This document shows, piece by piece, positions 5,646 through 24,022 of a stretch of DNA of 26,261 nucleotides. Source of the stretch: a virus. Position 1 is the first letter of the stretch. The number at the start of each line of letters is the position of its first letter. Both the position numbers and the translations under genes were made by a program. Location: IMG/VR virus record IMGVR_UViG_3300007511_000123, positions 1-26,261 of that record; one strand, given 5' to 3'. The notes beneath the pieces were generated by a model, which saw nothing but the letters and a program-made list of their open reading frames with translations, searched no databases and had not been told where the DNA came from.

Positions 5646-7442
5646 ATGAACAATACTTTTGATGTAGAACAATTCTTGGACAGAGATAGATTAGCAGTTA
5701 CTATTGCTAATAACTGGACTGAATGGCAAGGTCTACGCAAGGAATGGGAATCAGAGAAGAGAGAGCTACGTAATTATATCTTTGCTACTGATACTACTAA
5801 GACTACTAATGCCTCTTTGCCTTGGAAGAATAAAACTACTCTTCCTAAATTAACCCAGATCAGAGATAACCTACATGCTAACTATATGGCAGCCCTCTTC
5901 CCTAATGATGAGTGGTTATCATGGAGTGGTGATGATGAGGACTCAGTAGCTATGGATAAACGTAAAGCCATTGAGTTCTATATGAAGAATAAACTCAATA
6001 ACTCTGGCTTTAGGAATACCATATCTAAACTAATTCTGGATTATATTGATTATGGTAATTCTTATTCAGGTATTACGTACGTTAATGAATCTAAATCAGA
6101 TCCTATTACGGGTGAAGTAATACAGGGATATGTGGGTCCTAGACTTTATCGTATCTCACCTTTCGATATTGTATTTAATCCTACCACTGCATCCTTTGAA
6201 GAATCACCAAAGATCATTAGATCAATTAAATCACTAGGTGAATTAAAGAAGAATGTACTAAACAATCCTGAGCTTGGTTATAGTCAAGAAGTTATTGATC
6301 GTATACTTAATAATCGTAAGGCATATACACAGCTTGATCCTTCTGATCGTGCTAAGTCAGAGGGTTTCTCAGTAGATGGTTTTGGTTCTATTGAACAGTA
6401 TTATAACTCTGGATATGTAGAGCTTCTTGAGTTCCAAGGAGATATCTATGATCAGGATACAGATACTCTTTATGAAGATCATATCATCACTGTTATTGAT
6501 CGTAGTTATATAGTACGCCTAGAACCTAATAAATCGTGGTTAGGGGAGGGTTATATCAGACATGTGGGTTGGCGTACCAGACCTGATAATCTCCTCGCTA
6601 TGGGGCCACTAGACAATCTGGTGGGTATGCAGTATCGTATTGACCACCTTGAGAATCTAAAGGCTGACGTATTTGATCTTATAGCACATCCAGTTATGAA
6701 GATTAGAGGATACGTAGAAGACTTTGAGTATGGTCCAGGTGAACGTATTTATGCTGGTGATGATGGTGACGTAGATTTCATGCGACCAGATACTACTGCT
6801 CTTTCTGCTGATATGCAGATTAGAGAGCTAGAGAATAAAATGGAAGAGTTTGCTGGTGCTCCTAAACAAGCTATGGGTATTCGTACTCCAGGTGAGAAGA
6901 CAGCATATGAAGTACAAGCACTTGAGAATGCTGCTGGTCGTACATTCCAAAATAAGATCACACACTTCGAGGAACTATTTATAGAGCCACAGATAAATGC
7001 AATGTTTGAAATGTCAAGGAGACATTTAGATGGTGCTGATATTATTCGTGTAATGGATGATGACTTTGGTGTGGCTTCTTTCCTTACTGTAACCAAAGAA
7101 GACATTACAGCCAGAGGTAAGTTATATCCAAGAGGTGCTCGTCATTTCGCTAAACAAGCACAGCTTATACAAAATCTAACTCAGTTCGCTAACAGTTCTA
7201 TAGGACAAGATCCTGCTGTTAATGTACATATCTCAGGTAAACGTATGGCACAACTAGCTGAGGAATTACTGGGTGTAGATAAGTTTGGATTAGTACAAGA
7301 GAACGTGCGTATCATGGAACAGCAAGAGACTCAACGTATTATGCAGAGTGCTCAACAGCAACTACAACAAGAGCAGATGATGGATGTAGATCAGTCTGAG
7401 GAAGAAGAACAGATAATATTACAACAACAAGGAGCAATATAA
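5646..7442 (+). CDS. Portal (head-tail connector) protein
   Basis: A 598-residue protein in the canonical place between terminase and scaffold genes. The N-terminal segment LPWKNKTTLPKLTQIRDNLH followed by ANYMAALFPND is of a type I associate with portal proteins of short-tailed marine phages. Residues 100-300 mix helices and strands, consistent with wing and clip regions. The segment near residues 410-450 (KQAMGIRTPGEKTAYEVQALEN) matches the usual portal stem and helix region that precedes the crown. The C-terminus is unusually rich in Q and E, probably the flexible crown or barrel. The start has an AAGGA site. Portals form the dodecameric ring through which DNA enters and leaves. The stop overlaps the next start by one base. 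Confidence 0.9.
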   Translation: MNNTFDVEQFLDRDRLAVTIANNWTEWQGLRKEWESEKRELRNYIFATDTTKTTNASLPWKNKTTLPKLTQIRDNLHANYMAALFPNDEWLSWSGDDEDSVAMDKRKAIEFYMKNKLNNSGFRNTISKLILDYIDYGNSYSGITYVNESKSDPITGEVIQGYVGPRLYRISPFDIVFNPTTASFEESPKIIRSIKSLGELKKNVLNNPELGYSQEVIDRILNNRKAYTQLDPSDRAKSEGFSVDGFGSIEQYYNSGYVELLEFQGDIYDQDTDTLYEDHIITVIDRSYIVRLEPNKSWLGEGYIRHVGWRTRPDNLLAMGPLDNLVGMQYRIDHLENLKADVFDLIAHPVMKIRGYVEDFEYGPGERIYAGDDGDVDFMRPDTTALSADMQIRELENKMEEFAGAPKQAMGIRTPGEKTAYEVQALENAAGRTFQNKITHFEELFIEPQINAMFEMSRRHLDGADIIRVMDDDFGVASFLTVTKEDITARGKLYPRGARHFAKQAQLIQNLTQFANSSIGQDPAVNVHISGKRMAQLAEELLGVDKFGLVQENVRIMEQQETQRIMQSAQQQLQQEQMMDVDQSEEEEQIILQQQGAI

Positions 7443-8386
7443 TGGCAAGAACAACTCCAGGTGGAGGCTTTCAACCTAAGTTTGGTATGGGTAGAGGCGG
7501 TGGTACAGGTGGTGGTCGGATGGGTAAGGCTGCCGTAATCAAGGGTGGCACACCTACAGGACGTAAAGTAAAACGTCAAGGCAAGAAAGCACAGTCAACA
7601 GCAGTACCTAAGTCAGGACCTACTCGTCAGAGTGTAAAGGAAGGTATTAAGAGCAGAGCTAAGAAGCGTGAAGCTGAGAAGGCTAGAGTAACAGCACTAG
7701 CTAAGAAACGTATAGAGGAAGCTAAGAAACGTTCTGAGGCTCGCAAGAAGAAAGCCGCTGATAGAGAAGATACCAAGAAACAAGCTAAGAAGAAAACTGT
7801 TAAAAAGAAAACTGTTAAAAAGAAAACTGTTAAAAAGAAAACTGTTAAAAAGAAAACACCAAAAGCAAATATTAATAAGATTGGTGGTGGTAAACCTGCA
7901 TCACCTTCAAGAGCTAAGAAGGCTGGTATACTAACAGGTTCTGTTGTAGGGGGTACTATATTAGGTATAGGCCTTAGTAATCTTTCACAAGATAAAGTAG
8001 AAACTAAAAAGAAAAAGGTGGCTCCCAAGAAGAAGGTATGGGAAACAGACGCTTACAAGAAGAAGATTAGAGAACGTGATGCTAAGGTAGAGGCTATTAG
8101 AAAACGTAAACAACAGAACAAAAAGAAAGCTTTTGATGTTTCAGCTTTGATTGGTAAGTCTACCGATAAACTAAAGAAGCAACGTAAAAGCGATCTAGCT
8201 AAACGTTATGCTAAGAAAGCTAGTAAGTCAGGTTTTACTGTTTCTAATCTTATTGCTAAAGCAGTTGGTAATATGAAGAAGAAACGTAAACAGGAAGAAC
8301 TTAGTAAAAAGAAAGGTTATCTTAGAGATAGCTCAGGTAAAAGAGTGAGAACAGGCTATGGCGGTTATGTCAGAACAAGGAAATAA
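7442..8386 (+). CDS. Lysine-rich repeat protein with central hydrophobic segment
   Basis: This 314-residue, extremely basic protein is not one I recognise. Residues 1-45 are glycine-rich. Residues 60-140 are a K, R, E, A-rich helical stretch containing four KKTVK repeats (about 117-136), recalling histone H1 tails. A hydrophobic segment AGILTGSVVGGTILGIGLSN (161-180) could span a membrane. The C-terminal part holds two degenerate copies of F-x-V-S-x-L-I-x-K, at 231-239 and 265-273, each followed by a basic cluster. It lies between portal and scaffold genes, overlaps the portal stop by one base and has a GGAG site, so it is expressed with head genes. DNA binding or condensation, or a virion protein delivered with DNA, are possible roles but unproven. 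Confidence 0.8.
   Translation: MARTTPGGGFQPKFGMGRGGGTGGGRMGKAAVIKGGTPTGRKVKRQGKKAQSTAVPKSGPTRQSVKEGIKSRAKKREAEKARVTALAKKRIEEAKKRSEARKKKAADREDTKKQAKKKTVKKKTVKKKTVKKKTVKKKTPKANINKIGGGKPASPSRAKKAGILTGSVVGGTILGIGLSNLSQDKVETKKKKVAPKKKVWETDAYKKKIRERDAKVEAIRKRKQQNKKKAFDVSALIGKSTDKLKKQRKSDLAKRYAKKASKSGFTVSNLIAKAVGNMKKKRKQEELSKKKGYLRDSSGKRVRTGYGGYVRTRK
7790..7857 (+). repeat. 15-bp tandem repeat encoding KKTVK
   Basis: The unit AAGAAAACTGTTAAA occurs four times without change from 7790 to 7849 and continues for eight more matching bases. The period is a multiple of three, so changes in copy number keep the reading frame. Perfect identity of the copies, including third codon positions, points to recent expansion by slippage. 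Confidence 0.95.
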
Positions 8387-11751: not shown

Positions 11752-12028
11752 ACAAAAAAAGAAACCTAGAAAGAAATATGTTAGATCTAGGGAAAATAAT
11801 AGTAAGCCTCTACAGAATACAAAAGCCAAACGACTAGAACAACAGAAGTTATGGCAAGAAGGTATGCGTACCAAGTTTGAAATCAAACGTCTACCTCAGC
11901 TCACTTCCGTTGAGATCGTAACCAAAGGTAATACTAAACTACCTAATAGTTTACAGGGTATGTGGACCGATCATAAAATAGCTCAACGAGCAATTAATGT
12001 TTATATAGAAACTGGATTCAAGGTTTAA
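11711..12028 (+). CDS. Small basic hypothetical protein between adaptor and nozzle
   Basis: A basic protein of about 105 residues. I chose ATG 11711 because GGAGAGAG lies just upstream; an in-frame ATG at 11693 would add six residues but lacks a ribosome site. The gene overlaps the adaptor gene by 41 bases and its stop overlaps the nozzle start by one base, so it is tightly coupled to tail genes. Residues 15-60 are K, R and Q-rich and probably helical or disordered. The C-terminal part (LPNSLQGMWTDHKIAQRAIN) looks folded. It could be a tail assembly factor or minor tail protein; I do not recognise the family. Confidence 0.7.
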   Translation: MENQEPLTTVETDKQKKKPRKKYVRSRENNSKPLQNTKAKRLEQQKLWQEGMRTKFEIKRLPQLTSVEIVTKGNTKLPNSLQGMWTDHKIAQRAINVYIETGFKV

Positions 12029-14556
12029 TGCCACAAGCACAACAAAATAAAAATTATTTCACATTCGTTAAGGGGCTTATTACTGAAGCAAACCCATTAA
12101 CATATCCAGAGGATACTTCTTTTGATGAAGATAATTTTATACTAAAACGTAACGGTAGCCGTGAACGTAGATTAGGTATAGATTGGGAAACTAATAATAA
12201 AACAGCCAATACTGTTGATGTTGTTACTACAATAGGTGGTTCTTCTTTTGATGATTCCGAAATAGAAAGTTATGCTTTTACTACTCATGAATGGAGGGGT
12301 GTAGCTGGTGATGGGAATAAGAATTATACTATTATTCAGATAGGGCCATATCTTTATGTACACGATATGGAAAGATATCCATCTGATAGTACGGATAATC
12401 ATATTATATCTGAAAACAGAATAGATCTAAATATAAGCGGTAACGAATACATAGATCTAACAAACTATGCGGCTCCTGGATTAGCTAGTTCAGTAGGCAC
12501 AAATCCTGTTGATATTGCTTTTGGTAGGGGACGTGCATTTATTACCTGTGCTTGTGTAGAGCCTATTTATCTTGAATATACTACAGCCACAGATACGTGG
12601 TCTGTTGTTCAGTTTGAGTTACAGGTTAGAGATTTTGAGGGGGTAACAGATAACCTAGATTTAGGTGAGCGTCCATCATACCTCTCAAAAGAACACCAAT
12701 ATAATCTACTTAATCAAGGCTGGAAAAACGAGGGTGAGGGTGGTATAGATACACGTAAGATGTCACCACTAGAAGATATTGGAGCGGTTAGTGAAGTAAC
12801 AGTAACCAACGGTGGTTCTGGTTATACCACTGAACCAACCATTGCTTTTACTGGTGGTGCGGGTGCAGATGCAGCAGCTACAGCCACTATACTTAATGGA
12901 GAAGTTATCTCTATTACTGTAACAGAAGGTGGTACTGGTTATACTTCCGCACCTACCATGAGTTTTTCAGGGGGTGGTGGATCCGGTGCAACAGCGACTT
13001 GTGATTATGCTACTGCTGATGACACTCCATCTAAATATCCATCTAACTCTGACTTATGGCAATTAGGTAAATATACAGATCTTGATACAGCATCTAGCAC
13101 CAACGGCCAAGATATCTGGAATACTACACAACTAGATAAATTCAATATAGGTAATGCAACTGCGGCTAAAGGTAGTTTTACTTATGATTTATTTAATATA
13201 AATAGATCTTCTAACGTAGCTGGACTTTCTGATATAACTGAAACATATAGAGCAAGCACAGTAGCTTTCTTTGCTGGACGTGTTTGGTATAGTGGTTTTA
13301 ATTCTGAACGCATTGGTGGTAATGTAGTATTCTCTCAAATTATTCAAAACATAGATCAGCAAGTTGGTTATTGTTTTCAAGCTAACGACCCTACTGCTGA
13401 AGACCTAAACGAAGTACTACCTTCTGATGGTGGTGTTATTGATATTCCAGAAGTAGGACATGTCAATAAGATTATTACTGCAGGTAACTCATTAATTATT
13501 TTAGCTAATAATGGTGTATGGCAAATATCTGGTGGTGATTCAGGCTTTACTGCTGATACTTATGTAGTAAAGAAGGTAACTAATGTTGGTTGCGATTCAC
13601 CAAATAGTGTTATCTTTGCTGAAGGGCTTGTTTTTTATTGGGCTGGTGGTGGTATTTATGTGCTGGAAGCAGATCAAATATCATTAAATCTGAAAGCTAC
13701 AAACATAACACAGAATACTATTCAAACTAAATATAATAATATACCTAGAAATAAAAAGAATAAAGTCTTTAGTATTTATGATGAGAACGAAAAAGTACTT
13801 ATTTGGGGATATAATGATGATGCTGGTGAGGATATAGATTATAAATATACTAAATCAATTATGTATGATTTAAATCTAAAAGCTTTTCATTTACATTCAC
13901 TAGGAACCCTAAACGGAGATAAACCTTTTATTGCTACGGGTCTTTTCTATCATGATCTAACGGTTGGGGGGGTACAACAGAAAAGCACACCTAAGTTCTT
14001 ATCTATAGTGCCTACAGTACCTACTCATGCAACGGATAAACAGTGGAAATATTGTTTTAGTTATATGAAGGATGGAGATTATTTTACAGATTGGAGACAG
14101 TTTGAGATAGATATAAATAGTGCCACTGACGATGCTGTTGCTGGTCATAGTTATACCTCATATTTAGAAACCGCTTATGAGTTAGGCGGTGATGCTATGA
14201 GAAATAAACAAGTTAATTATTTATATATTTATATGACACGTACTGAATTAACAGCTACGGATGGCGTTCTTGATAATCAAAGTGCTGTAGATGTACAAGC
14301 TCGTTGGGAATGGGCTGATGATTCTATAAGTGGTAAATTTACAGATACATTTGACGGTTATAAATATGTACGTCCTTATGTATTATCTTCCACAACAGGA
14401 ACAGTAAACGTGGATTATGGTTATAAGGTTATGGTAACAAAAAATAAAATACGTGGTCAAGGTAAAGCAGTACAATTTAGATTCGCTTCACAAGATAATA
14501 AAGACTGTAAGCTTTTAGGTTGGGCGATACACGCAACAGGAGTAACTATAGTGTAA
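12028..14556 (+). CDS. Tail nozzle (tail tubular protein B-like)
   Basis: An 842-residue protein in the T7 gp12 position, after the adaptor. The N-terminus FVKGLITEANPLTYPEDTSFDEDNFILK (within residues 13-40), then NGSRERRLGIDWE, is the typical start of phage tail nozzle proteins. Most of the rest is beta-rich, as expected for a propeller-like tube tip. Residues about 251-328 hold an inserted glycine-rich domain with two related copies of a motif, NGGSGYTTEPTIAFTGG and EGGTGYTSAPTMSFSGG. The nozzle closes the tail and forms the DNA channel. The start overlaps the preceding stop by one base, and the end overlaps the GNAT start in the same way. Confidence 0.85.
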   Translation: MPQAQQNKNYFTFVKGLITEANPLTYPEDTSFDEDNFILKRNGSRERRLGIDWETNNKTANTVDVVTTIGGSSFDDSEIESYAFTTHEWRGVAGDGNKNYTIIQIGPYLYVHDMERYPSDSTDNHIISENRIDLNISGNEYIDLTNYAAPGLASSVGTNPVDIAFGRGRAFITCACVEPIYLEYTTATDTWSVVQFELQVRDFEGVTDNLDLGERPSYLSKEHQYNLLNQGWKNEGEGGIDTRKMSPLEDIGAVSEVTVTNGGSGYTTEPTIAFTGGAGADAAATATILNGEVISITVTEGGTGYTSAPTMSFSGGGGSGATATCDYATADDTPSKYPSNSDLWQLGKYTDLDTASSTNGQDIWNTTQLDKFNIGNATAAKGSFTYDLFNINRSSNVAGLSDITETYRASTVAFFAGRVWYSGFNSERIGGNVVFSQIIQNIDQQVGYCFQANDPTAEDLNEVLPSDGGVIDIPEVGHVNKIITAGNSLIILANNGVWQISGGDSGFTADTYVVKKVTNVGCDSPNSVIFAEGLVFYWAGGGIYVLEADQISLNLKATNITQNTIQTKYNNIPRNKKNKVFSIYDENEKVLIWGYNDDAGEDIDYKYTKSIMYDLNLKAFHLHSLGTLNGDKPFIATGLFYHDLTVGGVQQKSTPKFLSIVPTVPTHATDKQWKYCFSYMKDGDYFTDWRQFEIDINSATDDAVAGHSYTSYLETAYELGGDAMRNKQVNYLYIYMTRTELTATDGVLDNQSAVDVQARWEWADDSISGKFTDTFDGYKYVRPYVLSSTTGTVNVDYGYKVMVTKNKIRGQGKAVQFRFASQDNKDCKLLGWAIHATGVTIV

Positions 14557-15017
14557 TGATTATATATCGAGAAGAGAGAGCAGAGGACTTGGTAGATGAG
14601 ATTAAATTACACATACATAATCATTGGGAAGAAGTAGAACAATATAAAGATAAGATAAAACTTAATCCTGATTTTAATAAATATATTGAATTAGATAATC
14701 TAGGTATGTTACATGTTGTAACCGCTAGAAGAGAACAGGATTTAAAACTGATAGGTTATTTTATATCAGTAATAATGCCACCATTACATCATAAAGATCA
14801 TTTATTTGCTGTTAGTGATATTATTTATATTGCACCAGAATATCGTGGTAAACTTTTAGGTTTAAAATTAATTAAATATACTGAAAAGAAATTAAAAGAG
14901 AAAGGTGTTTCAGTTCTAAACATAACCATGAAGACACACGCATCATTTGAAAAAATATTAGAACGTATTGATTTTAATAAACAAGAAATTACATATACGA
15001 AATACATAGGAGTATAG
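14556..15017 (+). CDS. GNAT-family acetyltransferase-like protein in T7 gp13 position
   Basis: I start this 153-residue protein at ATG 14556, which overlaps the nozzle stop (TAATG); a longer frame from TTG 14520 is less likely. The fold pattern fits GNAT: beta-rich middle (KLIGYFISVIMPP), then DIIYIAPEYRGKLLGLKLIKYTEKKL (86-112), where the segment after the strand matches the acetyl-CoA pyrophosphate-binding helix R-G-K-x-x-G, followed by VSVLNITMK. T7 gp13, at the same place, is itself reported to be related to GNAT proteins. The role may be acetylation of a host or virion target, or only structural with the fold reused. The first glycine of the motif is replaced, so activity is uncertain. 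Confidence 0.75.
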   Translation: MIIYREERAEDLVDEIKLHIHNHWEEVEQYKDKIKLNPDFNKYIELDNLGMLHVVTARREQDLKLIGYFISVIMPPLHHKDHLFAVSDIIYIAPEYRGKLLGLKLIKYTEKKLKEKGVSVLNITMKTHASFEKILERIDFNKQEITYTKYIGV

Positions 15018-15019
15018 AA

Positions 15020-15460
15020 ATGCAAGCTTTAATGATAGCATCAACAGTAATTGGAGCTTATTCAGCTTACCAACAAGGTAAAGCATCTAAAAAGGCAGCG
15101 GCGGAGACACGTAAAGCTAGGAAAGCTGAGGCTAAAGTGCAAGCTGCTAAAATGGTACGTGAGAAGAAAGATGTTGTTGAGCGAGGTCAGAGAGCTAAGG
15201 CAGTTGCTCTAGCACAAGCAGAAGCAGCAGGTGGTGAAACTGCAATTAGCACACAAACATCTTTACTTCCAGGGGTACAAGGATCTATTACTTCTCAACA
15301 GGGAGAGCAACTATCTTTCCTTGAGGGACAGGATGTTGCTATGGGTCAACGTAATGTAGCTGCAGGTAGAGCTGCCGGTCATCAATCAAGAGCCAACCAG
15401 TGGGGAGCTTATGGTTCTATGGCTGGTACTATTTTCTCGGGCGCACAAGCTCTAGCATAA
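15020..15460 (+). CDS. Internal virion protein, gp14-like
   Basis: A 146-residue protein in the position of T7 gp14. A short hydrophobic N-terminal helix (ALMIASTVIGAYSAY, residues 3-17) is followed by a K, A, R, E-rich coiled-coil helix to about residue 70. Glycine and glutamine-rich segments follow, ending in another hydrophobic stretch (YGSMAGTIFSGAQALA). This layout, an amphipathic or membrane-active protein with an alanine-rich helix, fits the small ejected proteins that open a path through the outer envelope. The ATG has an AGGAG site. The stop overlaps the next start by one base, so the giant protein downstream is coupled to it. Assignment is by position and composition. Confidence 0.7.
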   Translation: MQALMIASTVIGAYSAYQQGKASKKAAAETRKARKAEAKVQAAKMVREKKDVVERGQRAKAVALAQAEAAGGETAISTQTSLLPGVQGSITSQQGEQLSFLEGQDVAMGQRNVAAGRAAGHQSRANQWGAYGSMAGTIFSGAQALA

Positions 15461-18400
15461 TGACAACTCAAGCACTCTTTGCTGATCAAGAGATAGATCT
15501 ATTTGCTGATCTTGAACAACCAGAGGAACAACAGCCTCTAGGTGAAACACTACGTAAACTTATTGCTGGTGAAGCTACGTACGTATCTGCTCAGGAGAAT
15601 AGATATGAACCTATAGTACGTCAACAGCAGTACATTGGTGCATATAATCAGCTTAAGACTGAAGATAATATTGATGGTGTACTACATAATTCAGCTTCAG
15701 CATATAGTAATAGTATGCGTGAAGTACTGAATACATACATGCAGAAGTATATAGATTCTAATCCTAACGATGTAGATGGTTTTCAGGAAGAAGTAATGAC
15801 TGTGAGTGAAGCTCACGGTACTCTTGATGAGGATATGACAGTTGAGAATGCTTTTGATGTAGCATTCGTTGAGTCAGCTGCTAGTACCAATATGGATACA
15901 GCAGTGCAGAAAGAACAAATGTTTAGGTTCTATGCTCAGAGACAATTAGCAGAACTTTTAGATAAGCAGGATGTGTTTGATAAGGTTGTTAATTATACTG
16001 CATTATTATGGCCAGATATTACTTATGATATATCTCAGTTCTTAGAAGGAAGCTGGTTTAATAATTACGATGATTTCTATTCATTCCAACAGAATTTCTT
16101 TTCGTTGTCACCCAAAGATAAAGTTATTGCTTGGAAAGAAATTCAAGAACAAGCATACGAAACCTTCGATAGCAACGAAGTAAAGACAGCTATCTTCTTG
16201 GCAACACTCATTGATCCAGTAGGTGCTGATGAGGTTAAGACACAAGGATACTTCGATGCATTCGACATAGGTACTGCTGGAGTTACTGCTGGTATAGCAC
16301 TAACCAGACCTTTGTTTACCGCTCTCCGATCAATGAGACTTAATAAGAAACTCATGGAGCTTGAGAATGTAGATGAAGCAGGAATGGTTACAGCCATGGA
16401 AGGATTGGACGAGGCAGGGGCTGATGCGCTCTCTGCGAGCCGTTTCGATACAGCCTCTACCATTAACCCATTTAATACAGAAGAGTTCATAGGGGGCATT
16501 GACGGTCTCTCAGAGGCTACTGTACGTAACCTAGAGGGACATATAGGACAAGGTACTAAACTAGATACCATTCTTAATAATATACATAGATTCACATCTC
16601 CAGAAGCTGATAGCTTATTCCTAAAGGAAGGCTTCATACCACCAGATACGAGAGAACGTCTAATAGCTGAAGCACTTAATAAACAACAGCAGTTATCACA
16701 TGATTATCGTGTGAAGCTCGGTGTCGATATGAGGGATGTTCGTGTCATTAAGAGTGATGAGGATGGTTTCACTATTGGTTATAAGCTGGAGGGTTTAGAC
16801 TTAGAACATAAAGTAGCCTTTACTATTGATGATGAAACAGGCTCATTTATGACTACTGAATTAGGTAAAGTACCTGCTACTGTACTCTCACCTTCTCGTT
16901 TATTTCAGGATGATCCATACTTAGTATCTGGCTTTACCAGAACCGGTGATCAAGGTGCTCGTTTATCTGCTGGTTTTAAACAAGCATATAAAGAAGCACT
17001 TAAGCCTATAGAAAAAGGTTTGATTAAGGACGGTATACTAGATAAAATTAAATACCGTAAGCGGTATAGACAATTAGATGAGATACTTGTTCTAGCTGAT
17101 AACCACAGATTGAAACAAACACTCACACCCATACAATTAAAGCAAGGTTTCTTTACTAATAATGAAGGTAAGGTAATTCATTTTGAAGCTCTCAGTGATG
17201 ATGGCGTTAAGGCTTATTATGGTGTACGTAGAGTACTAGATCAGTTGTGGGAACTAACTAATTATCGTATACGTAGGGAATATCAGGCTAAAGGTTATAA
17301 AGATATTGACATATACCAAACAGTAGATGGTGCGGTCGCTAAACAACAACATATCGGTAAGCCTCATGATACTATAGAAGCTGCACATACATCTATTAGG
17401 CATTATGGTGATTCACTTAGTCAGGGCAAGGGTAAGAGATCACGATCTAACTGGATATATATCTATAAAGCACCAACTGAGGAGGGTGCTAGTGGTTCGT
17501 TTAATAAATACCCTAGCCACCAACTACCCTCTAAAACAGGTATACTTCAACAGTGGTATGATGAGGGATATAAACTTTATAGATTAGATACACCTGTTTT
17601 AATGAAGAATGCTGGTGATACTAAAGGTTCTTATATTGATTATGCTCTTATTAAGGAAGAGTGTTGTGTACATGAACTGCCTTATACTATGTTGAATAAG
17701 GAACCTAATTATATACCACGTATTTATAATAAAGGAACTTACTTCGTTAAGGAAATAGAGAAGGAAGGACTGACACATACTAGACGTATAATGTACAGCA
17801 AAAAAGATGCTGAGGATTTTGTCAACACACAGAATAAATATCTAGGTGAGGAAGTTACAGGCTCTAAATGGATTTATAAATTCGATAGAGAATTAACACC
17901 TTATGAACTTGAGGAAGAAACTATCAATATGTTTGGTGGTTTATATTCAGGTAAACGTGCTAAGGATAGAATCATTGAGGGTACTGGTGTTCCTAATGAA
18001 GCGGAGTTCCCTGATCGTGTTAACTCACTAGGTGCTATTCAGAGATACATGAACCACGTAGCTTCTGTTATTCCTATGAATGAATATCGTATGGCTATGC
18101 AGAAGCGTTGGTTGAATACAGCAGAGAAGATTAGAGTACAGAAAGGATACGCAGCTGTACTTGAGAAACCTTGGGACTTTCATTCTGATATTTTGTTAGA
18201 TAAGTTTTCTTCTGAAGCTGTTGCTTTGGAGAGTTTACGTTCATATATAAACGATGTTATGCGTTTACCTACATTCACTGATAAACTGTGGACATCAGGA
18301 ATGCGTAGGTTAGCTGAGACTACAGAGAAAACCACTATAGGTTCTATTGATTGGAGCGGTGGTCTTTATAAGAAGAAGTTTGGTAAGCCTTACGATGCTA

Positions 18401-20019
18401 CTATATATAGAGGATTACAATGGGCTTCATCAAAAGATCCTTATGCTCTTATGCGTACAATGGCTTTCCATCCCTTACTAGGTTTCTGGAACTTCTCTCA
18501 ACTGGTAGTACAATCAGCAGGAGCAACGCTAGCGGTTTCTCTTGATCCTGTTAATGCTACTAAATATATGAGACAGTACTCAGCATTAAGGATGTTGAGT
18601 TTAGCTAAACATTTTCCAAAGATACAGAACAACCCAGAGAAAATGTCTCTTATTTATAATAAAATAGCTAAGGCATCTGATCTAAAAGTAGATGATCTAA
18701 AAGAACTACACCTTCAATGGGAACGTACTGGTCTTGAAGAATCAATTATGCTTAATGCTGATTTCAACGCTGCTAAACAGGGGTTTGGTATAGGTATTGA
18801 AGGATTAAAAAAGATAACCGATAGTGGACTGCTGTTCTATCGTGAAGGCGAGCTAGTTAACCGAGGATATACTTGGTTAATGGCTAGAAATAAATGGATG
18901 ACTAGGGAAGGACGTGGTGTTCTAAATACTGCTGATGAGAAAGCTGTTATTGATGAGGCTTATAAAGTGGGTCTTAACTTCTCACGTATGAATCGTGCTC
19001 AGTGGCAGAAGGGAGCATTATCTGTGCCTACACAGTTCCAACAGGTAATGGCTAAGTTCATGGAACAGTTTATTCCTGGATCTAAGAACTGGACTAAAGG
19101 TGAGAAAGCCAAAGTACTGACAGGACAGTTGATATTATTTGGAGCGGCTGGAGTACCAACTGCTGAATACATAATTAATAATGCATTACGTATGGCTGGT
19201 TATGAAGCTGGTGATCTATCGGAAACAGAACGTAGAACTATTCAAGAAGGAATAACAGGTTTGTTCCTAGAGCTGATGGATGCTGATGTTACTGTAGTTA
19301 ATCGTATGGCATTCTCTGCTGATCCCGAACATAGTGTTATTGGTAAACTTTTTGATGGTGGTCCTAGTACTGCATCTGCTTACTTTGGTGCGTTTGGTAC
19401 AGTGATGGGACGTGCGGAGAATAGTATTAGTTTACTTAAACCAATATTTGGTTCAGCAGATACAATACATGACTTAACAGCTAATGATCTTTTGGCTGGA
19501 GCTAGTCAGCTTGGGCGTATCTCTTCTTCTTGGAGAAACATACACAAGTCTATGTATCACCATAACTTAGGTATCATGTTTGATAACCATGGTAATAAAA
19601 TTAAGGAAACAAGACCTAACCTAGTTTCAGAAATTGGTCAAGCACTTGGTTTTAAATCAAAAGATGTTGAGATTACCTATGACATGCTTGAGTACAACAA
19701 GGATAAATCTACATTCTATAAAGAGATACTGGATGACATGGTTCAATTACGTGTTATGTATCTACATACGGTAACTGGTGAGGTATCAGATCCACAGGCA
19801 GCTCGAAGACTACTAGCAGCTGAGAAGATTCTGTTTGCTGGTGCTGGTTTATCACCTGACGAAGAGCAGAAGATGTATACTATGTTGGGTCAGAGACTTT
19901 CTCAGAATGAAGGTAAGTACGTAATGGAACATAATAAACTATTCAACAATATATGGTTGGAACAAGGTGCTCCTAGAGTTGAACAGACAGTACCACCGCT
20001 AATGAATATAGGACAATAA
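15460..20019 (+). CDS. Giant internal virion (DNA ejection) protein
   Basis: A 1519-residue protein starting at ATG 15460, which overlaps the preceding stop (TAATG); an upstream ATG at 15400 lies inside the previous gene and is unlikely. It sits in the T7 gp15-gp16 region. The N-terminus is acidic and helical. A segment near residues 260-290 (GTAGVTAGIALTRPLFTAL) is hydrophobic. The last 500 residues, with LLGFWNFSQLVVQSAGATLA and QFQQVMAKFMEQFIPG, resemble the C-terminal region of large podovirus ejection proteins. I see no lytic transglycosylase motif at the N-terminus, unlike T7 gp16. It probably forms part of the inner core and the channel through which DNA passes. The exact family cannot be set by eye. 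Confidence 0.75.
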   Translation: MTTQALFADQEIDLFADLEQPEEQQPLGETLRKLIAGEATYVSAQENRYEPIVRQQQYIGAYNQLKTEDNIDGVLHNSASAYSNSMREVLNTYMQKYIDSNPNDVDGFQEEVMTVSEAHGTLDEDMTVENAFDVAFVESAASTNMDTAVQKEQMFRFYAQRQLAELLDKQDVFDKVVNYTALLWPDITYDISQFLEGSWFNNYDDFYSFQQNFFSLSPKDKVIAWKEIQEQAYETFDSNEVKTAIFLATLIDPVGADEVKTQGYFDAFDIGTAGVTAGIALTRPLFTALRSMRLNKKLMELENVDEAGMVTAMEGLDEAGADALSASRFDTASTINPFNTEEFIGGIDGLSEATVRNLEGHIGQGTKLDTILNNIHRFTSPEADSLFLKEGFIPPDTRERLIAEALNKQQQLSHDYRVKLGVDMRDVRVIKSDEDGFTIGYKLEGLDLEHKVAFTIDDETGSFMTTELGKVPATVLSPSRLFQDDPYLVSGFTRTGDQGARLSAGFKQAYKEALKPIEKGLIKDGILDKIKYRKRYRQLDEILVLADNHRLKQTLTPIQLKQGFFTNNEGKVIHFEALSDDGVKAYYGVRRVLDQLWELTNYRIRREYQAKGYKDIDIYQTVDGAVAKQQHIGKPHDTIEAAHTSIRHYGDSLSQGKGKRSRSNWIYIYKAPTEEGASGSFNKYPSHQLPSKTGILQQWYDEGYKLYRLDTPVLMKNAGDTKGSYIDYALIKEECCVHELPYTMLNKEPNYIPRIYNKGTYFVKEIEKEGLTHTRRIMYSKKDAEDFVNTQNKYLGEEVTGSKWIYKFDRELTPYELEEETINMFGGLYSGKRAKDRIIEGTGVPNEAEFPDRVNSLGAIQRYMNHVASVIPMNEYRMAMQKRWLNTAEKIRVQKGYAAVLEKPWDFHSDILLDKFSSEAVALESLRSYINDVMRLPTFTDKLWTSGMRRLAETTEKTTIGSIDWSGGLYKKKFGKPYDATIYRGLQWASSKDPYALMRTMAFHPLLGFWNFSQLVVQSAGATLAVSLDPVNATKYMRQYSALRMLSLAKHFPKIQNNPEKMSLIYNKIAKASDLKVDDLKELHLQWERTGLEESIMLNADFNAAKQGFGIGIEGLKKITDSGLLFYREGELVNRGYTWLMARNKWMTREGRGVLNTADEKAVIDEAYKVGLNFSRMNRAQWQKGALSVPTQFQQVMAKFMEQFIPGSKNWTKGEKAKVLTGQLILFGAAGVPTAEYIINNALRMAGYEAGDLSETERRTIQEGITGLFLELMDADVTVVNRMAFSADPEHSVIGKLFDGGPSTASAYFGAFGTVMGRAENSISLLKPIFGSADTIHDLTANDLLAGASQLGRISSSWRNIHKSMYHHNLGIMFDNHGNKIKETRPNLVSEIGQALGFKSKDVEITYDMLEYNKDKSTFYKEILDDMVQLRVMYLHTVTGEVSDPQAARRLLAAEKILFAGAGLSPDEEQKMYTMLGQRLSQNEGKYVMEHNKLFNNIWLEQGAPRVEQTVPPLMNIGQ

Positions 20020-20020
20020 G

Positions 20021-21769
20021 ATGGGACTACAAACACAACTACAAGATCCTACTGTATATGATATACCAGATACAGCAGTGGTGGATGATCATTATAGACA
20101 CTATGCTAAGGCATTTGATACTGCTGTTACTGGTGGTATTGAGACATACAAAGAATATCAGAAAGGAGTTGCTAGGGAAGAGCAAGCAGGGGAAGTTGAG
20201 GGTTATCAGAGTGAGGTTGAGGCATATCAAAAAGCTAAACCCACACCACTGCCTTCTAATGCTACACCTGAACAGGTACAGTTAGCTAAAGAACAGTCTC
20301 AGGTATTTCAAATGCATAAGCAGGGGCTATTATCTGGTCCTAGTTTAAAAGCACGTATACAAAAAGTAGCTCGTCAACAGATGGTTGATCATCCTTGGAT
20401 GGCTGCGGAGATTAAAGCTTACTCTGCTTTCTATACTAAAAGCTCAGCTGGTGCTATTGAGTTACCGCCTGAGTTACAGGGTATTAAGGATGCACAGAAA
20501 CAGATAGCTAAGAACATGGCTCTTGAGGGCATGAACGCTACTGATCCTAATCAATATAATGCTTACGTCACACGTATGCATAAGGTAGCTGTGTTTGATG
20601 CTAGACAGAAAGAATTAACATATAATGCATCACAAGGTGATTTCAATGTTCCTGATGTTATAGATCTTATTGATAACATGGCATTAATATTACCTGCTAG
20701 TGAAGGTCAAGGTATGGGTATGTTACCTTTAATGAAACAGTTTAATAAAGAACTAGCTAACGCAGGTGGAGATCCCTCTCAAGTTAATGTGGGTTTCTAT
20801 AAGTCACAAGTATCTTTGCTTAAGTTTCAGCTTAAAGCTGGGCTATCTGCTGCTATTGAACAGGCTGGTGCTAATCTTGATTTTAATGATCGCAAGGAAG
20901 TAGAGGAACATATAAATAATATAGGTAGTGATTGGATTACTGCTATTGAGGAAGGTAATAAAGCTAAGCTTGGCTTCCTTACGAGTCAGAATGAGTTGGT
21001 AGAACAAGGTGTTATACGAGATCTGGGTCCTATAGCACCATTAGCTAAAGCTCTTGGTGACTCAGGAGCACAGGAACTATTGGGGTCATGGAGAAGGCTA
21101 TCTGGGTTATCTGAGAATGCTTTTAAGCTCGACCCCTTCTATATTAAACATCCTATCTACTCTGATATGTTACGTAGGAACAAACCTGAATTTTATATAG
21201 GTGCAGTAATTAAGGGTTTCTCAACAGGCAATCCACTTGAACGTACACCATTAACTAATAATATTGCAGTTGATGTAATTAGTAGTATGTCAAGTGCTAA
21301 TGTACAAACTAATCAACCATTCACTAAAGAACAACAGATAACATATAGTACTGCTGTCAATAACTTATTGAATCAAGAGAGTACTGAGCATCGTGTGGGT
21401 GCTATGGAGAGATTACTTACTGATCGTATTAATGCTAGTGTGATATTTAGTAATCCAGAAACTACACAGGAAGTACGTAATGCATTCACATCTATCTATA
21501 CCGGACTGATAGAGAAACGTGAGACTATGGAATCACAGGCTATCTTCTATATTGGTGATGATAGTAATGTTCACTCATATCTTCCGGGTCGAGCTAAGGA
21601 AATTGATTTACTTTTTGGTGAAGGTACACAGGCTGTTGAACCAGCATTCGTAGAGATGACTAATAAAATGTTATCGTTATATGACATCATAGGTTTTAAT
21701 TCTAACATGGGATTAACTAGGGATGAGTTCATTCGTAAAGTTCTTGGTGAACGTAGAGAAAATAAATGA
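20021..21769 (+). CDS. Internal virion protein, gp15-like by position
   Basis: A 582-residue, mostly helical protein that follows the giant protein by one base. Residues 20-100 are Q, E and A-rich, resembling a coiled coil (YQSEVEAYQKAKPTPLPSN). A further helix-rich core follows, with motifs such as DHPWMAAEIKAYSAFY and DFNDRKEVEEHINNIGSDW. There is no signal peptide, membrane helix or enzyme motif that I recognise. Location in the ejection-protein cluster and helical composition suggest a core protein similar in role to T7 gp15. The stop overlaps the start of the ART-GNAT gene by four bases (ATGA), so the two are translationally coupled and probably made in related amounts. Confidence 0.65.
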   Translation: MGLQTQLQDPTVYDIPDTAVVDDHYRHYAKAFDTAVTGGIETYKEYQKGVAREEQAGEVEGYQSEVEAYQKAKPTPLPSNATPEQVQLAKEQSQVFQMHKQGLLSGPSLKARIQKVARQQMVDHPWMAAEIKAYSAFYTKSSAGAIELPPELQGIKDAQKQIAKNMALEGMNATDPNQYNAYVTRMHKVAVFDARQKELTYNASQGDFNVPDVIDLIDNMALILPASEGQGMGMLPLMKQFNKELANAGGDPSQVNVGFYKSQVSLLKFQLKAGLSAAIEQAGANLDFNDRKEVEEHINNIGSDWITAIEEGNKAKLGFLTSQNELVEQGVIRDLGPIAPLAKALGDSGAQELLGSWRRLSGLSENAFKLDPFYIKHPIYSDMLRRNKPEFYIGAVIKGFSTGNPLERTPLTNNIAVDVISSMSSANVQTNQPFTKEQQITYSTAVNNLLNQESTEHRVGAMERLLTDRINASVIFSNPETTQEVRNAFTSIYTGLIEKRETMESQAIFYIGDDSNVHSYLPGRAKEIDLLFGEGTQAVEPAFVEMTNKMLSLYDIIGFNSNMGLTRDEFIRKVLGERRENK

Positions 21770-23355
21770 CATTCAAGTACTGGCAAGATGGTGAAGAGAA
21801 GGAAGCTGAATCACTAGACCAAGCCATTGATCAGACTCTAATACATAAACCAGAAGAGTCTCAAACACCTATTGAGAGTGCCTCAGAGCCAGCGAGAGAG
21901 CTTGCTGAGTACATTGAGGGGCGTAAGGGTGTCCTAAAGGAACTCTTCTCTACGGAGGCGTGGAAGGAAGCATTGACTACCTTACCTAAGCTTGATGATG
22001 TGGTAGCACAGAAAGAAATTAGAGAAGAATCTATGTCTGTAGCTCTTGATTGGATGGGTGGTGGAATAACTCAGGTAGGTAAGAAGGGTGTACAATTAGT
22101 TGGTGAGGTTGCTGACATGATTGATAACTACAGACCTGGACAAGGATTTAGGGATACATATATCCAACCAAAGAAAGAGTTACCTTCTGGGGTAGAGGAA
22201 CAAATAAAAAACTCAGTCTTTAAAGATAACCAAGGTAATCCTCTGGTTGTATTCCATGGCACAAACCGTATCATTGAGGGTGGTTTAAAGAAAGGAAAGG
22301 TTAGACCTGTAATCTCTTTTACTTTAGATCCTAAACTAGCTGATGAAGTATACTCAGCTGCGGATGAGATACCTTATCATGCTAAGACAAGAGTACCTAA
22401 AAAACCTGATGAGTCAGTAGAAGAATATGCTACTAGATTACAGCCTATAGCTAAAGAATTAGGATTCACACATCCTTCTAATATAATTGAAATGATTGGT
22501 GGAATGGGTGATGAGAAACAATTAGCTAAGTACGTACCTATCATAGAGAAGAAGTGGGGTATTCAAGTAACTAAACACGGTACTGATGGTAGATATTTAC
22601 CTACCTCAGCAACACACCCAGTTACATTGGATATTCAAAAACCATTCAACCCTGCTGATCCTAAGCATGTTAAGAGATACCATGAGGCGTATGTTAAACA
22701 CTATGGACATACAGGGGAAATGGTTAAGAAGGATTTAGAAGCTATTAAGAATGGTGATTGGCATATGCTAGAGGAACCTGAGCTTATGAAGAAGCTAGGT
22801 TTTGATAGTACATATACCGTAGAGCACGGTGCAGTTAATATACACGTCTTTGATGAGAAACAAGTAGTGCCTCTTTTTAGTAAAGTAAAAAACAAATTAG
22901 ATGTGAATGTATCAGAGCACGGTATATTAGGTAGAATATATGAGATGACCAACGATGATGTTATTATTCATCATGGTCGTCCTGTTTTTACTAAGACAGG
23001 TAATAGATTATCAGGGACAAAAGGAACCAACAGATTAGAGTTTGATATTTATGATATGAAACACTATAAAGAAACCGAAGAAACACTTAAGATAGGAACA
23101 GTACAGTTGAACATAATTGAACAAGAAGGTTCAACACCTATAGTTGAGGGTTTGGTTGATATTACTTTAAATCCTAAGTATAGGAAACAAGGTTTTGGTA
23201 AGAAGATTATTGAAGCTGTACGTACACTAAACCCAGATAATAAACTAAATGTTTATGATGTAAAGAAATCAGCACAGGGTTTCTGGAAGAAATTAGGCGG
23301 TAAACCTGTAAAGAATAAAGGTGTTATTGATCAACAAGATTTTATAATTGAGTAA
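21766..23355 (+). CDS. Putative ADP-ribosyltransferase-like and GNAT acetyltransferase fusion protein
   Basis: A 529-residue protein with three parts. Residues 1-140 are a charged, partly helical N-terminal region. Residues about 145-372 resemble the ART-like domains of phage polyvalent proteins: SVFKDNQGNPLVVFHGTN (150-167, with H164 in the expected HGT position), ISFTLDPKLADEVY (183-196), LDIQKPFNP (288-296), and a closing HVFDEKQVVPLFS (360-372). Residues about 390-529 look like a GNAT domain: VEGLVDITLNPKYRKQGFGKK (460-480, with R473, G476 and G478 of the acetyl-CoA loop), then NVYDVKKSAQGFWKKLGG (495-512). The gene ends the internal-virion cluster and shares an ATGA overlap with the previous gene. 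Catalytic competence of either domain is unproven, and the fusion and motifs are read by eye. Confidence 0.7.
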   Translation: MTFKYWQDGEEKEAESLDQAIDQTLIHKPEESQTPIESASEPARELAEYIEGRKGVLKELFSTEAWKEALTTLPKLDDVVAQKEIREESMSVALDWMGGGITQVGKKGVQLVGEVADMIDNYRPGQGFRDTYIQPKKELPSGVEEQIKNSVFKDNQGNPLVVFHGTNRIIEGGLKKGKVRPVISFTLDPKLADEVYSAADEIPYHAKTRVPKKPDESVEEYATRLQPIAKELGFTHPSNIIEMIGGMGDEKQLAKYVPIIEKKWGIQVTKHGTDGRYLPTSATHPVTLDIQKPFNPADPKHVKRYHEAYVKHYGHTGEMVKKDLEAIKNGDWHMLEEPELMKKLGFDSTYTVEHGAVNIHVFDEKQVVPLFSKVKNKLDVNVSEHGILGRIYEMTNDDVIIHHGRPVFTKTGNRLSGTKGTNRLEFDIYDMKHYKETEETLKIGTVQLNIIEQEGSTPIVEGLVDITLNPKYRKQGFGKKIIEAVRTLNPDNKLNVYDVKKSAQGFWKKLGGKPVKNKGVIDQQDFIIE

Positions 23356-23366
23356 GAAGAAGAACA

Positions 23367-23597
23367 ATGGAAATAGACCCAAGAATAATCTGGAACATAA
23401 TCTTAACTCTAGGCATTGGACCTCTCTATTGGTTCATAAAGAGAATGGCAAATGATATTAGATCACTTGATCGTAGAGTTACTGACCATGAGATTAGAGA
23501 TGTGCAAACATTTATAACCAAGGAAGATTATCACAGGGATATTGATGAGATCAAGGGAATGCTCTCAGATATATTTGAGATCCTTAGGGCTAAATAA
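23367..23597 (+). CDS. Small membrane protein, holin-like
   Basis: A 76-residue protein with one hydrophobic helix (about residues 8-25, WNIILTLGIGPLYWFIK) followed by a charged helix of heptad character (RSLDRRVTDHEIRDVQTF, then DIDEIKGMLSDIFEILRAK). The topology is typical of small phage membrane proteins encoded in lysis regions. It overlaps the spanin-like gene by one base, which favours a holin role. Without an endolysin in view, another inner-membrane role cannot be ruled out. No clear ribosome binding site other than AAGAAG is seen. Confidence 0.6.
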   Translation: MEIDPRIIWNIILTLGIGPLYWFIKRMANDIRSLDRRVTDHEIRDVQTFITKEDYHRDIDEIKGMLSDIFEILRAK

Positions 23598-23965
23598 TGA
23601 AGATAATATATGTTATACTACTCAGTCTTACTCTATCAGGCTGTGCCGGACTCGGTGTATTATCAAATCTATTATCACCCTCTAATGCTCCTAGTATAGA
23701 AGCTGAGGCAAATATAGGTAAGGAAGTAGAGTCAACAGATAAGTCTTTGGTTATCAAAGAAGATACAATCAAGGGGGAGGTTGTTACTGTACATAAGGCT
23801 GAGCGATTTGCTCAAGTAACTGCTACTGAATTAATATACGAGGAACGTATACCATTTTGGATATGGATCTTAGTAATTATGGGTTGGATATTACCAAGTC
23901 CTATAGAGATATATAAGGGTTTAGGTACGCTTATATTAAATATAAAAAATTTTATTAAGTCCTAG
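23597..23965 (+). CDS. Probable unimolecular spanin (u-spanin) lipoprotein
   Basis: A 122-residue protein with a lipoprotein signal: hydrophobic residues 3-12 followed by the lipobox LSGC, lipidated Cys16. The middle is a polar, charged linker with little aromatic content (residues 30-80). A membrane segment IPFWIWILVIMGWIL (85-99) and a second hydrophobic run at 107-119 close the protein. This is the layout of u-spanins such as T1 gp11: an outer-membrane anchor at the N-terminus and an inner-membrane anchor at the C-terminus, linked across the periplasm to fuse the membranes during lysis. It directly follows a holin-like gene and precedes the operon terminator. Function is inferred from topology and position. 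Confidence 0.7.
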   Translation: MKIIYVILLSLTLSGCAGLGVLSNLLSPSNAPSIEAEANIGKEVESTDKSLVIKEDTIKGEVVTVHKAERFAQVTATELIYEERIPFWIWILVIMGWILPSPIEIYKGLGTLILNIKNFIKS

Positions 23966-23975
23966 TATTCTAGGC

Positions 23976-24022
23976 AAGGAACCCCTTAGAATTTCTCTCT
24001 CTGTTCTAAGGGGTTCTTTTTT
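23976..24022 (+). terminator. Strong intrinsic terminator closing the late operon
   Basis: GAACCCCTTAGAA (23979-23991) and TTCTAAGGGGTTC (24004-24016) are perfect 13-bp complements, followed by TTTTTT (24017-24022). It lies 13 bases after the u-spanin stop. The gene on the opposite strand ends at 24028, so the hairpin sits between convergent genes and may act on both strands, though only the plus strand has a T-run. Confidence 0.95.

Follow-up and report, generated by a model that had tools for sequence, protein, structure and literature searches.

According to passages of Iyer et al. (2017, PMC5512222), one family of GNATs in phage polyvalent proteins typically neighbours an ADP-ribosyltransferase (ART) domain in the same polypeptide, and the packaging of such ART/GNAT proteins was predicted as probable; part of a later article (Iyer et al., 2022, PMC9503650) repeated the packaging argument for ARTs encoded near head genes. 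The idea of a packaged ART-GNAT polyvalent phage protein, as these passages present it, is already known and was published in 2017. Here, we analysed a virus record of 26,261 bases (IMG/VR record IMGVR_UViG_3300007511_000123; this whole stretch is called the window below), in which the gene at 21766–23355 encodes a protein with an ART-fold domain followed by a GNAT domain in one chain. As in polyvalent proteins, at least two domains, enzymatic ones among them, share a chain, and the gene lies among the late virion genes of a portal-terminase phage (matches identify the portal, tail, and ejection genes; the terminase and capsid genes are assigned from their look and from synteny). New are a small ART-GNAT polyvalent protein with an unusual ART site and a phage context that was not seen in those passages of Iyer et al. 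The explanation that we put forward, a compact polyvalent ART-GNAT protein that is packaged, delivered with the DNA, and modifies host proteins, is in our judgement evenly balanced between right and wrong when taken as a whole.

The ART and GNAT domains

The gene and its product have the following features:

21766–23355, + strand: ART-GNAT protein gene, an open reading frame (ORF) of 529 amino acids
21766–21769, + strand: ATGA overlap of the second ejection protein stop with the ART-GNAT gene start, read from the sequence
21766–22170, + strand: N-terminal ~135 residues, without a Pfam match (scan of 21766–22206, no family)
22198–22881, + strand: ART domain, residues ~145–372, from profiles, alignment, and model
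22255–22257, 22315–22317, 22804–22806, and 22861–22863, + strand: ART codons H164, S184, D347, and Q366, respectively
22961–23003, + strand: 43-bp linker segment (IIHHGRPVFTKTG); contig L001 has two in-frame copies, one on each side of the GNAT
23002–23352, + strand: GNAT domain, residues ~413–529, with the RKQGFG motif, from Pfam, profile, and model

The motifs quoted in the sequence-only reading were all located at the residues it gave (VFHGT at 162–166 with H164, YRKQGFG at 472–478, FWKKLGG at 506–512), and its ATGA coupling to an ejection or internal virion protein gene was confirmed. The remaining motifs lie at 183–186 (ISFT), 191–196 (LADEVY), and 360–367 (HVFDEKQV). The N-terminal ~135 residues are possibly a packaging segment.

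A scan of IMG/VR with a DNA pattern for the HGT block returned at least 120 stretches. From IMG/VR and other loci, 144 ART-like stretches were collected by motif, 129 of them distinct, and removal of the window's own two left 127 for an ART profile. This profile scored 39.9 bits against the ART-GNAT protein (best of 200 shuffles, 3.3). Because the stretches had been picked by the HGT block, the block was also removed from both the profile and the query, and the score was then 16.3 bits over residues 167–395 (best of 500 shuffles, 5.5). The alignment passes through four blocks (HGT; FT-DP--A; a P-containing strand; GFD ... F--Q), and the domain of the window protein carries an insert of ~85 residues at about 198–283. 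Judged from these comparisons, residues ~145–372 are an ART domain related to ART-PolyVal and homologous over the whole domain. Two alignment-based scans for nearer ART relatives returned three loci (two of them near-identical contigs) and two genome loci.

The AlphaFold2 model of the ART domain, built from an alignment of the window with 57 rows (123 usable), had a predicted local distance difference test score (pLDDT) of 73.7 and a predicted template modelling score (pTM) of 0.65. In a second look with VIA-align, 1000 chains were compared and 50 entries were listed, with Z values of 4.8–8.4. We take 49 of the 50 (the exception is 9ya0_AB) to be ART superfamily members, by their titles or, for 9k3a_B, by motif alone; they presumably include Tpt1, tankyrase, PARP4, diphtheria toxin, NatT, ParT, and the anti-CRISPR protein 6kyf. 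The top match listed was this 9k3a_B, a chain of the cyanophage A4 pre-ejectosome (Z 8.4, 132 residues, root-mean-square deviation 3.6). Since the list is uniform and the sequence profile agrees with it, we assigned the ART fold to the domain.

In passages of Iyer et al. (2017, PMC5512222), polyvalent ARTs combine a strand-1 H with a strand-2 Y and a strand-5 D. The strand-1 histidine of the HGT motif is present as H164, and it is also present in 127/127 comparison stretches, all picked by that motif. D347, in GFD, aligns with the aspartate of a GYDG motif (125/127), which in our own reading would be the strand-5 aspartate of Iyer et al., and Q366 is retained as well. At the catalytic position of strand 2, where ART-PolyVal and Tox-ART-HYD2 have tyrosine, the window protein has S184. 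The residue at this position among the 127 stretches was Y in 50, F in 43, W in 19, H in 10, M in 2, and S, A, and I in 1 each, so that the family accepts aromatic substitutes while serine is rare, and ART activity is therefore uncertain. For lack of the strand-2 tyrosine, we class the domain as an ART-fold relative and not as a canonical H-Y-D enzyme; by its residues, it may be altered or inactive. Of the marks of ART-PolyVal and Tox-ART-HYD2, the domain has the HGT histidine, the strand-5 aspartate, and the profile homology, and it lacks the strand-2 tyrosine and a Pfam match above the cut-off.

These residues bear directly on an alternative in which a degenerate ART has lost ADP-ribose transfer and serves the ejection complex as a structural component or as a target binder, with only the GNAT or neither domain catalytic. 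Such a role would fit S184, at a position where 122/127 relatives have Y, F, W, or H, and the possible ART-like domain in the cyanophage A4 pre-ejectosome structure, but H164, D347, and Q366 are all retained, a single member of the set of 127, L110, shares the S at the strand-2 position, and ARTs of the R-S-E clade carry a serine in strand 2. We regard a degenerate ART as unlikely, though deserving of serious weight.

The GNAT domain has the acetyl-CoA loop motif, for which the rule is R/Q-x-x-G-x-G/A, as RKQGFG at 473–478. Its AlphaFold2 model (pLDDT 75.8, pTM 0.61) was built from 19 rows, mainly hand-picked solo or other GNATs. Foldseek returned seven matches at E ≤ 0.001, comprising two named acetyltransferases, three chains of AtaT, which we take to be an acetyltransferase toxin, and two with uninformative titles. 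In the second look, Z values reached 10.9 (100 residues), and acetyltransferases were named in almost every one of the 50 rows listed (the titles of 5jpq_i and 3eo4_B are silent). From sequence and model together, residues ~413–529 are judged to be a GNAT. A GNAT search of 8681 open frames from loci other than the window's own gave two matches, L184 (E 0.003) and L129 (E 0.016), both of which are GNAT segments inside large proteins with ART-PolyVal by Pfam, and in L038 an ART is followed by a GNAT within one frame. A scan with the GNAT segment returned L001's contig alone.

Profiles and models thus bear out an ART-like and a GNAT domain in one protein, as the sequence-only reading had proposed; of the structure predictions, the ART model resembles ARTs at modest scores, while the GNAT model is clearly GNAT-like. 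Several results on the domains nevertheless count against an ART-GNAT protein that modifies its host. The profile search suggested by that reading did find Pfam matches to both families, all of them under the cut-offs: ART-PolyVal (PF18760) at E 6.4e-5 and 24.2 bits (16.3 bits in the genome search; cut-off 31.2), with a best stretch of 18 residues at 154–171, Acetyltransf_7 at E 5.4e-5 and 23.9 bits over residues 442–511 (cut-off 27), and Acetyltransf_1 at 18 bits (cut-off 20.7). The ART profile set was itself selected on the HGT motif, a search of PDB sequences with the profile gave no ART (best E 0.17), and Foldseek with the ART model gave no match at E ≤ 0.001. The Z values of the ART model (≤8.4) are modest and in or near the range for which the tool warns of perhaps a mere common arrangement. 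The departure of S184 from the H-Y-D pattern belongs with these points.

Searches with the whole ART-GNAT protein gave no match by tblastn against the phage collection and nothing convincing in a search of PDB sequences (the best E, 0.14, was for the yjaB acetyltransferase). PADLOC gave no match, and NCBIfam gave sub-threshold acetyltransferases only.

The third gene slot and its neighbours

The portal matched MW202697, classified only as Caudoviricetes, at up to 57% identity and Zobellviridae at up to 56%, and the large internal virion protein matched the same Zobellviridae-like group (23–28% identity, covering most of the protein in the best rows) as well as phrog_12003. By these matches, the phage is a Zobellviridae-like podovirus. 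In annotated relatives, the order tail tube B, solo GNAT, small internal protein, large internal protein, second ejection protein, and third gene recurs, although individual relatives can miss some of these genes. The window has the following neighbours of the ART-GNAT gene:

12028–14556, + strand: tail tube B or tail appendage protein (phrog_8094)
14520–15017, + strand: solo GNAT (Pfam, PHROG, and profile search)
15020–15460, + strand: small internal virion protein (weak phrog_418 match, E 0.007)
15400–20019, + strand: large internal virion protein, 1539 amino acids counted from the first possible start (phrog_12003)
20021–21769, + strand: second ejection protein, 582 amino acids, overlapping the ART-GNAT gene (syntenic profile)
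23367–23597, + strand: small ORF, 76 amino acids, holin-like by position and look only (no family above cut-off)
23597–23965, + strand: lipoprotein-like or Rz-like spanin (phrog_1804, E 1.2e-5)
23976–24019, + strand: strong hairpin followed by a T run (z −5.47)

A profile was built from 39 syntenic proteins, 13 of them from annotated phages and 26 from IMG/VR loci, some near-duplicate or partial, and the second ejection protein scored 46.3 bits with it (best of 200 shuffles, 6.2). The protein is too diverged for tblastn to find a phage match, and it had no PHROG match and no phmmer match among 13 syntenic proteins. The hairpin, which a terminator scan with a loop limit of 8 had missed, is by its sequence the probable end of the late operon; it likely closes the whole unit, so that the ejection and lysis readings of the locus share one late transcript. 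Consensus promoters and terminators were not more frequent in the window than in shuffles.

Proteins in the third slot were scanned with Pfam in 23 relatives (9 + 9 + 5), the ORF chains of relatives being the uncurated output of a simple script and the V1015 gene scanned being the second after its ejection protein. The scan left aside those next ORFs that were short or displaced (L063, L072, L073, L076, L077, L083, L084, and L088), the next genes of ICP2, CW02, and VP41s3, and L081, which is the same as L080; in the DNA examined of L070, L078, L079, L086, and L087, the slot-3 ORF was not found. A wall hydrolase scored above cut-off in 9/23. MW202697 has SLT and ART-PolyVal together (L045:12569–13807; ART 48.4 bits), both above cut-off, as were Phage_lysozyme2 in MEP401, Amidase_2 in ICBM2, Peptidase_M15_4 in L080, and Phage_lysozyme in PQ867843, L066, L071, L082, and L085. 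Below cut-off were lysozyme-like matches in L067, L069, and L075 and a GNAT in L065 (19.6 bits; cut-off 20.7). Ten proteins had no such Pfam match (PQ867845, PQ867844, CRP-4, V1077, VpV262, V1015, L064, L068, L089, and L074, the last with a fibre-like look). A hydrolase also lies near the C-terminus of 3/15 second ejection proteins scanned (SLT in L063 and L074, lysozyme exactly at cut-off in L072), and PQ867844 has such a match below cut-off in its second ejection protein. A variable third gene is thus common at this position in relatives, and the view in the sequence-only reading that no standard T7-like counterpart is known there did not hold up.

By phmmer, the ART-GNAT protein matched none of nine slot-3 proteins of relatives, and by blastp its best match to the MW202697 protein was at E 0.025, with the motifs not aligned to each other. 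Passages of PMC10386132 and PMC9960094 do not mention slot-3 enzymes.

Some further observations concern this region and its relatives. A short N-terminal motif was seen by eye in the slot-3 proteins of V1077, VpV262, V1015, and L075, to which the N-terminus of the ART-GNAT protein is only weakly similar. The solo GNAT (14520–15017), which lies between tail tube B and the ejection proteins, is conserved at that place across many Zobellviridae-like phages. The large internal virion protein of L086 contains a GNAT-like segment (7943–8155), for which a local profile of five seeds gave E 0.0006 and Pfam just 13.8 bits. A very lysine-rich protein with KKKTV repeats is encoded directly after the portal gene (7442–8386), and a glycine-rich segment of tail tube B (about residues 252–331; 12781–13020) matches several virion families of differing names.

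Proposed delivery with the DNA

The gene for the chain with an ART-fold domain and then a GNAT overlaps the second ejection protein gene and has the same late direction. We propose that the synthesis and head loading of the protein would go together with those of the ejection proteins, that it would pass the ejection channel along with the first DNA, and that it would modify host proteins once in the cytoplasm. For the GNAT, the reaction would be acetylation of amino groups, and for the ART, provided that S184 still permits catalysis, transfer of ADP-ribose from NAD; otherwise, the ART would only bind NAD or a target and thereby aim the GNAT.

As judged from gene order and sequence relatives, delivery itself is a little better than even. 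It is plausible because of the overlap with an ejection gene, the hydrolase–ejection protein fusions, and the SLT + ART and the sub-threshold GNAT in the same slot, and because precedents exist in the possible ART-like domain of the cyanophage A4 pre-ejectosome and in T7 gp16, an ejection protein that, according to part of PMC8954989, contains a transglycosylase. On the other side of the balance, slot 3 also borders lysis genes, and the position also fits a lysis cassette, because several slot-3 genes resemble small endolysins (L071, L082, L085). ART and GNAT occurred together by Pfam in 0/23 slot-3 proteins, the A4 precedent is weak by sequence, and no virion proteome of this phage was found in the literature.

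These points on position lead to a second alternative, in which the protein stays unpackaged and is a late intracellular effector, a moron or lysis-phase factor at work while the host cell dies. In favour of this, a holin-like (by look) and a spanin-like gene come next, and the slot is often endolysin-like in relatives (Phage_lysozyme in L071, L082, L085, and PQ867843; an M15 peptidase in L080; an amidase in ICBM2). The ATGA overlap, however, ties the gene to that of an ejection protein, some relatives have a hydrolase domain fused to their second ejection protein, and SLT and ART share the slot in MW202697. We consider an unpackaged effector doubtful, if a genuine contender.

The 3′ end of the gene differs among contigs. 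Contig L001 matches the window with 10 differences in 9584 positions (99.9% identity), and the match stops at 23349, one codon ahead of the ART-GNAT stop. L001 has a second exact copy of the 43-bp linker, in frame and 381 bp after the first, followed by a polyvalent-type DPLIEEAKKYKTAEEFVE segment (L001:9577–9769 versus window 22961–23355). The extension beyond the match is 185 bp at the contig end, and its final 119 bp are identical to L006, whose ORFs resemble by eye the terminase and portal genes of another phage. Contig L002 stops at window position 22923, beside the linker, and the linker motif was found among viral contigs in L001's only. The L001 extension could reflect an exchange of modules or a contig end that is chimeric; of L001 and the window, the short terminal tail with its identity to L006 makes L001 the likelier chimera. 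That the 3′ end of the window gene is an assembly artefact and the real gene a longer polyvalent protein as in L001 is very unlikely. In its favour, L001 does run past the GNAT through the second linker copy and L002 does break off beside the linker, but the window runs unbroken from the GNAT into plausible lysis genes and a terminator, and the L001 tail is short, terminal, and largely shared with L006. As a separate observation, several of 15 polyvalent-like ORFs in L006–L020 are bracketed in the style of a cassette, with differing domains enclosed by DPLIEEAKKYKTAEEFV as the start motif and LTDIWNKA as the end motif.

A broader idea, which we consider rather improbable, sees a cargo bay in the third ejection slot of Zobellviridae-like phages. 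The wall-piercing hydrolase that is its usual content would be swapped there for host-modifying enzymes (here ART + GNAT), C-terminal modules would be exchanged at the repeated linker within one population as in polymorphic toxins, and the serine ART would be re-tuned or would target the GNAT.

If the ART-GNAT protein is delivered, it would be a small, tractable two-domain virion-borne protein for host modification in a podovirus family with cultured members, and the 2017 prediction for polyvalent proteins would thereby become testable by virion proteomics. A suggested place to look for such proteins is the gene directly after the second ejection protein.

Comparison with known systems

The cyanophage A4 pre-ejectosome protein (9k3a chain B) is alike in its ART-like fold match and differs in its length of 1717 amino acids. 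From its length and residue numbers, ORF27 of Anabaena phage A-4L appears to be the same protein. By sequence, A4/A-4L ORF27 had no Pfam ART, scored −5.1 bits with the ART profile, and had an hhalign probability of 17%, which weakens it as a precedent. In A-4L (L212:20116–25269), ORF27 is annotated as 'tail protein' and has ART-like motifs near residues 1423–1595, with SLYHGT at 1423, GTYFS at 1446, and GVDAL at 1578.

To our knowledge, T4 Alt has no GNAT. It is alike as a virion ART and, in passages of Iyer et al. (PMC5512222), is the model for polyvalent ARTs. The likeness to T4 Alt drawn in the sequence-only reading breaks down at the clade level, as Alt belongs to the R-S-E clade and polyvalent ARTs are H-Y-D according to the same passages (PMC5512222); the window domain is an H-Y-D type in which S stands in for Y, and it has H164 at the place that aligns with the strand-1 arginine of R-S-E.

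The third gene of MW202697 (Manatee Spring podovirus) occupies the same slot, overlaps the second ejection protein gene by one base, and encodes a C-terminal ART. It differs in having a transglycosylase in place of the GNAT and has no significant direct match to the window protein.

The polyvalent ART-bearing proteins of L129, L184, and L038 have GNATs that resemble the window GNAT. With the polyvalent proteins in the passages of Iyer et al. (PMC5512222), the window protein shares an ART and a GNAT in one polypeptide, a gene near late virion genes, and predicted packaging. It differs from them in having just 529 amino acids and two recognized domains, with the ART before the GNAT, a serine in strand 2, and a place directly after the ejection proteins of a Zobellviridae-like phage.

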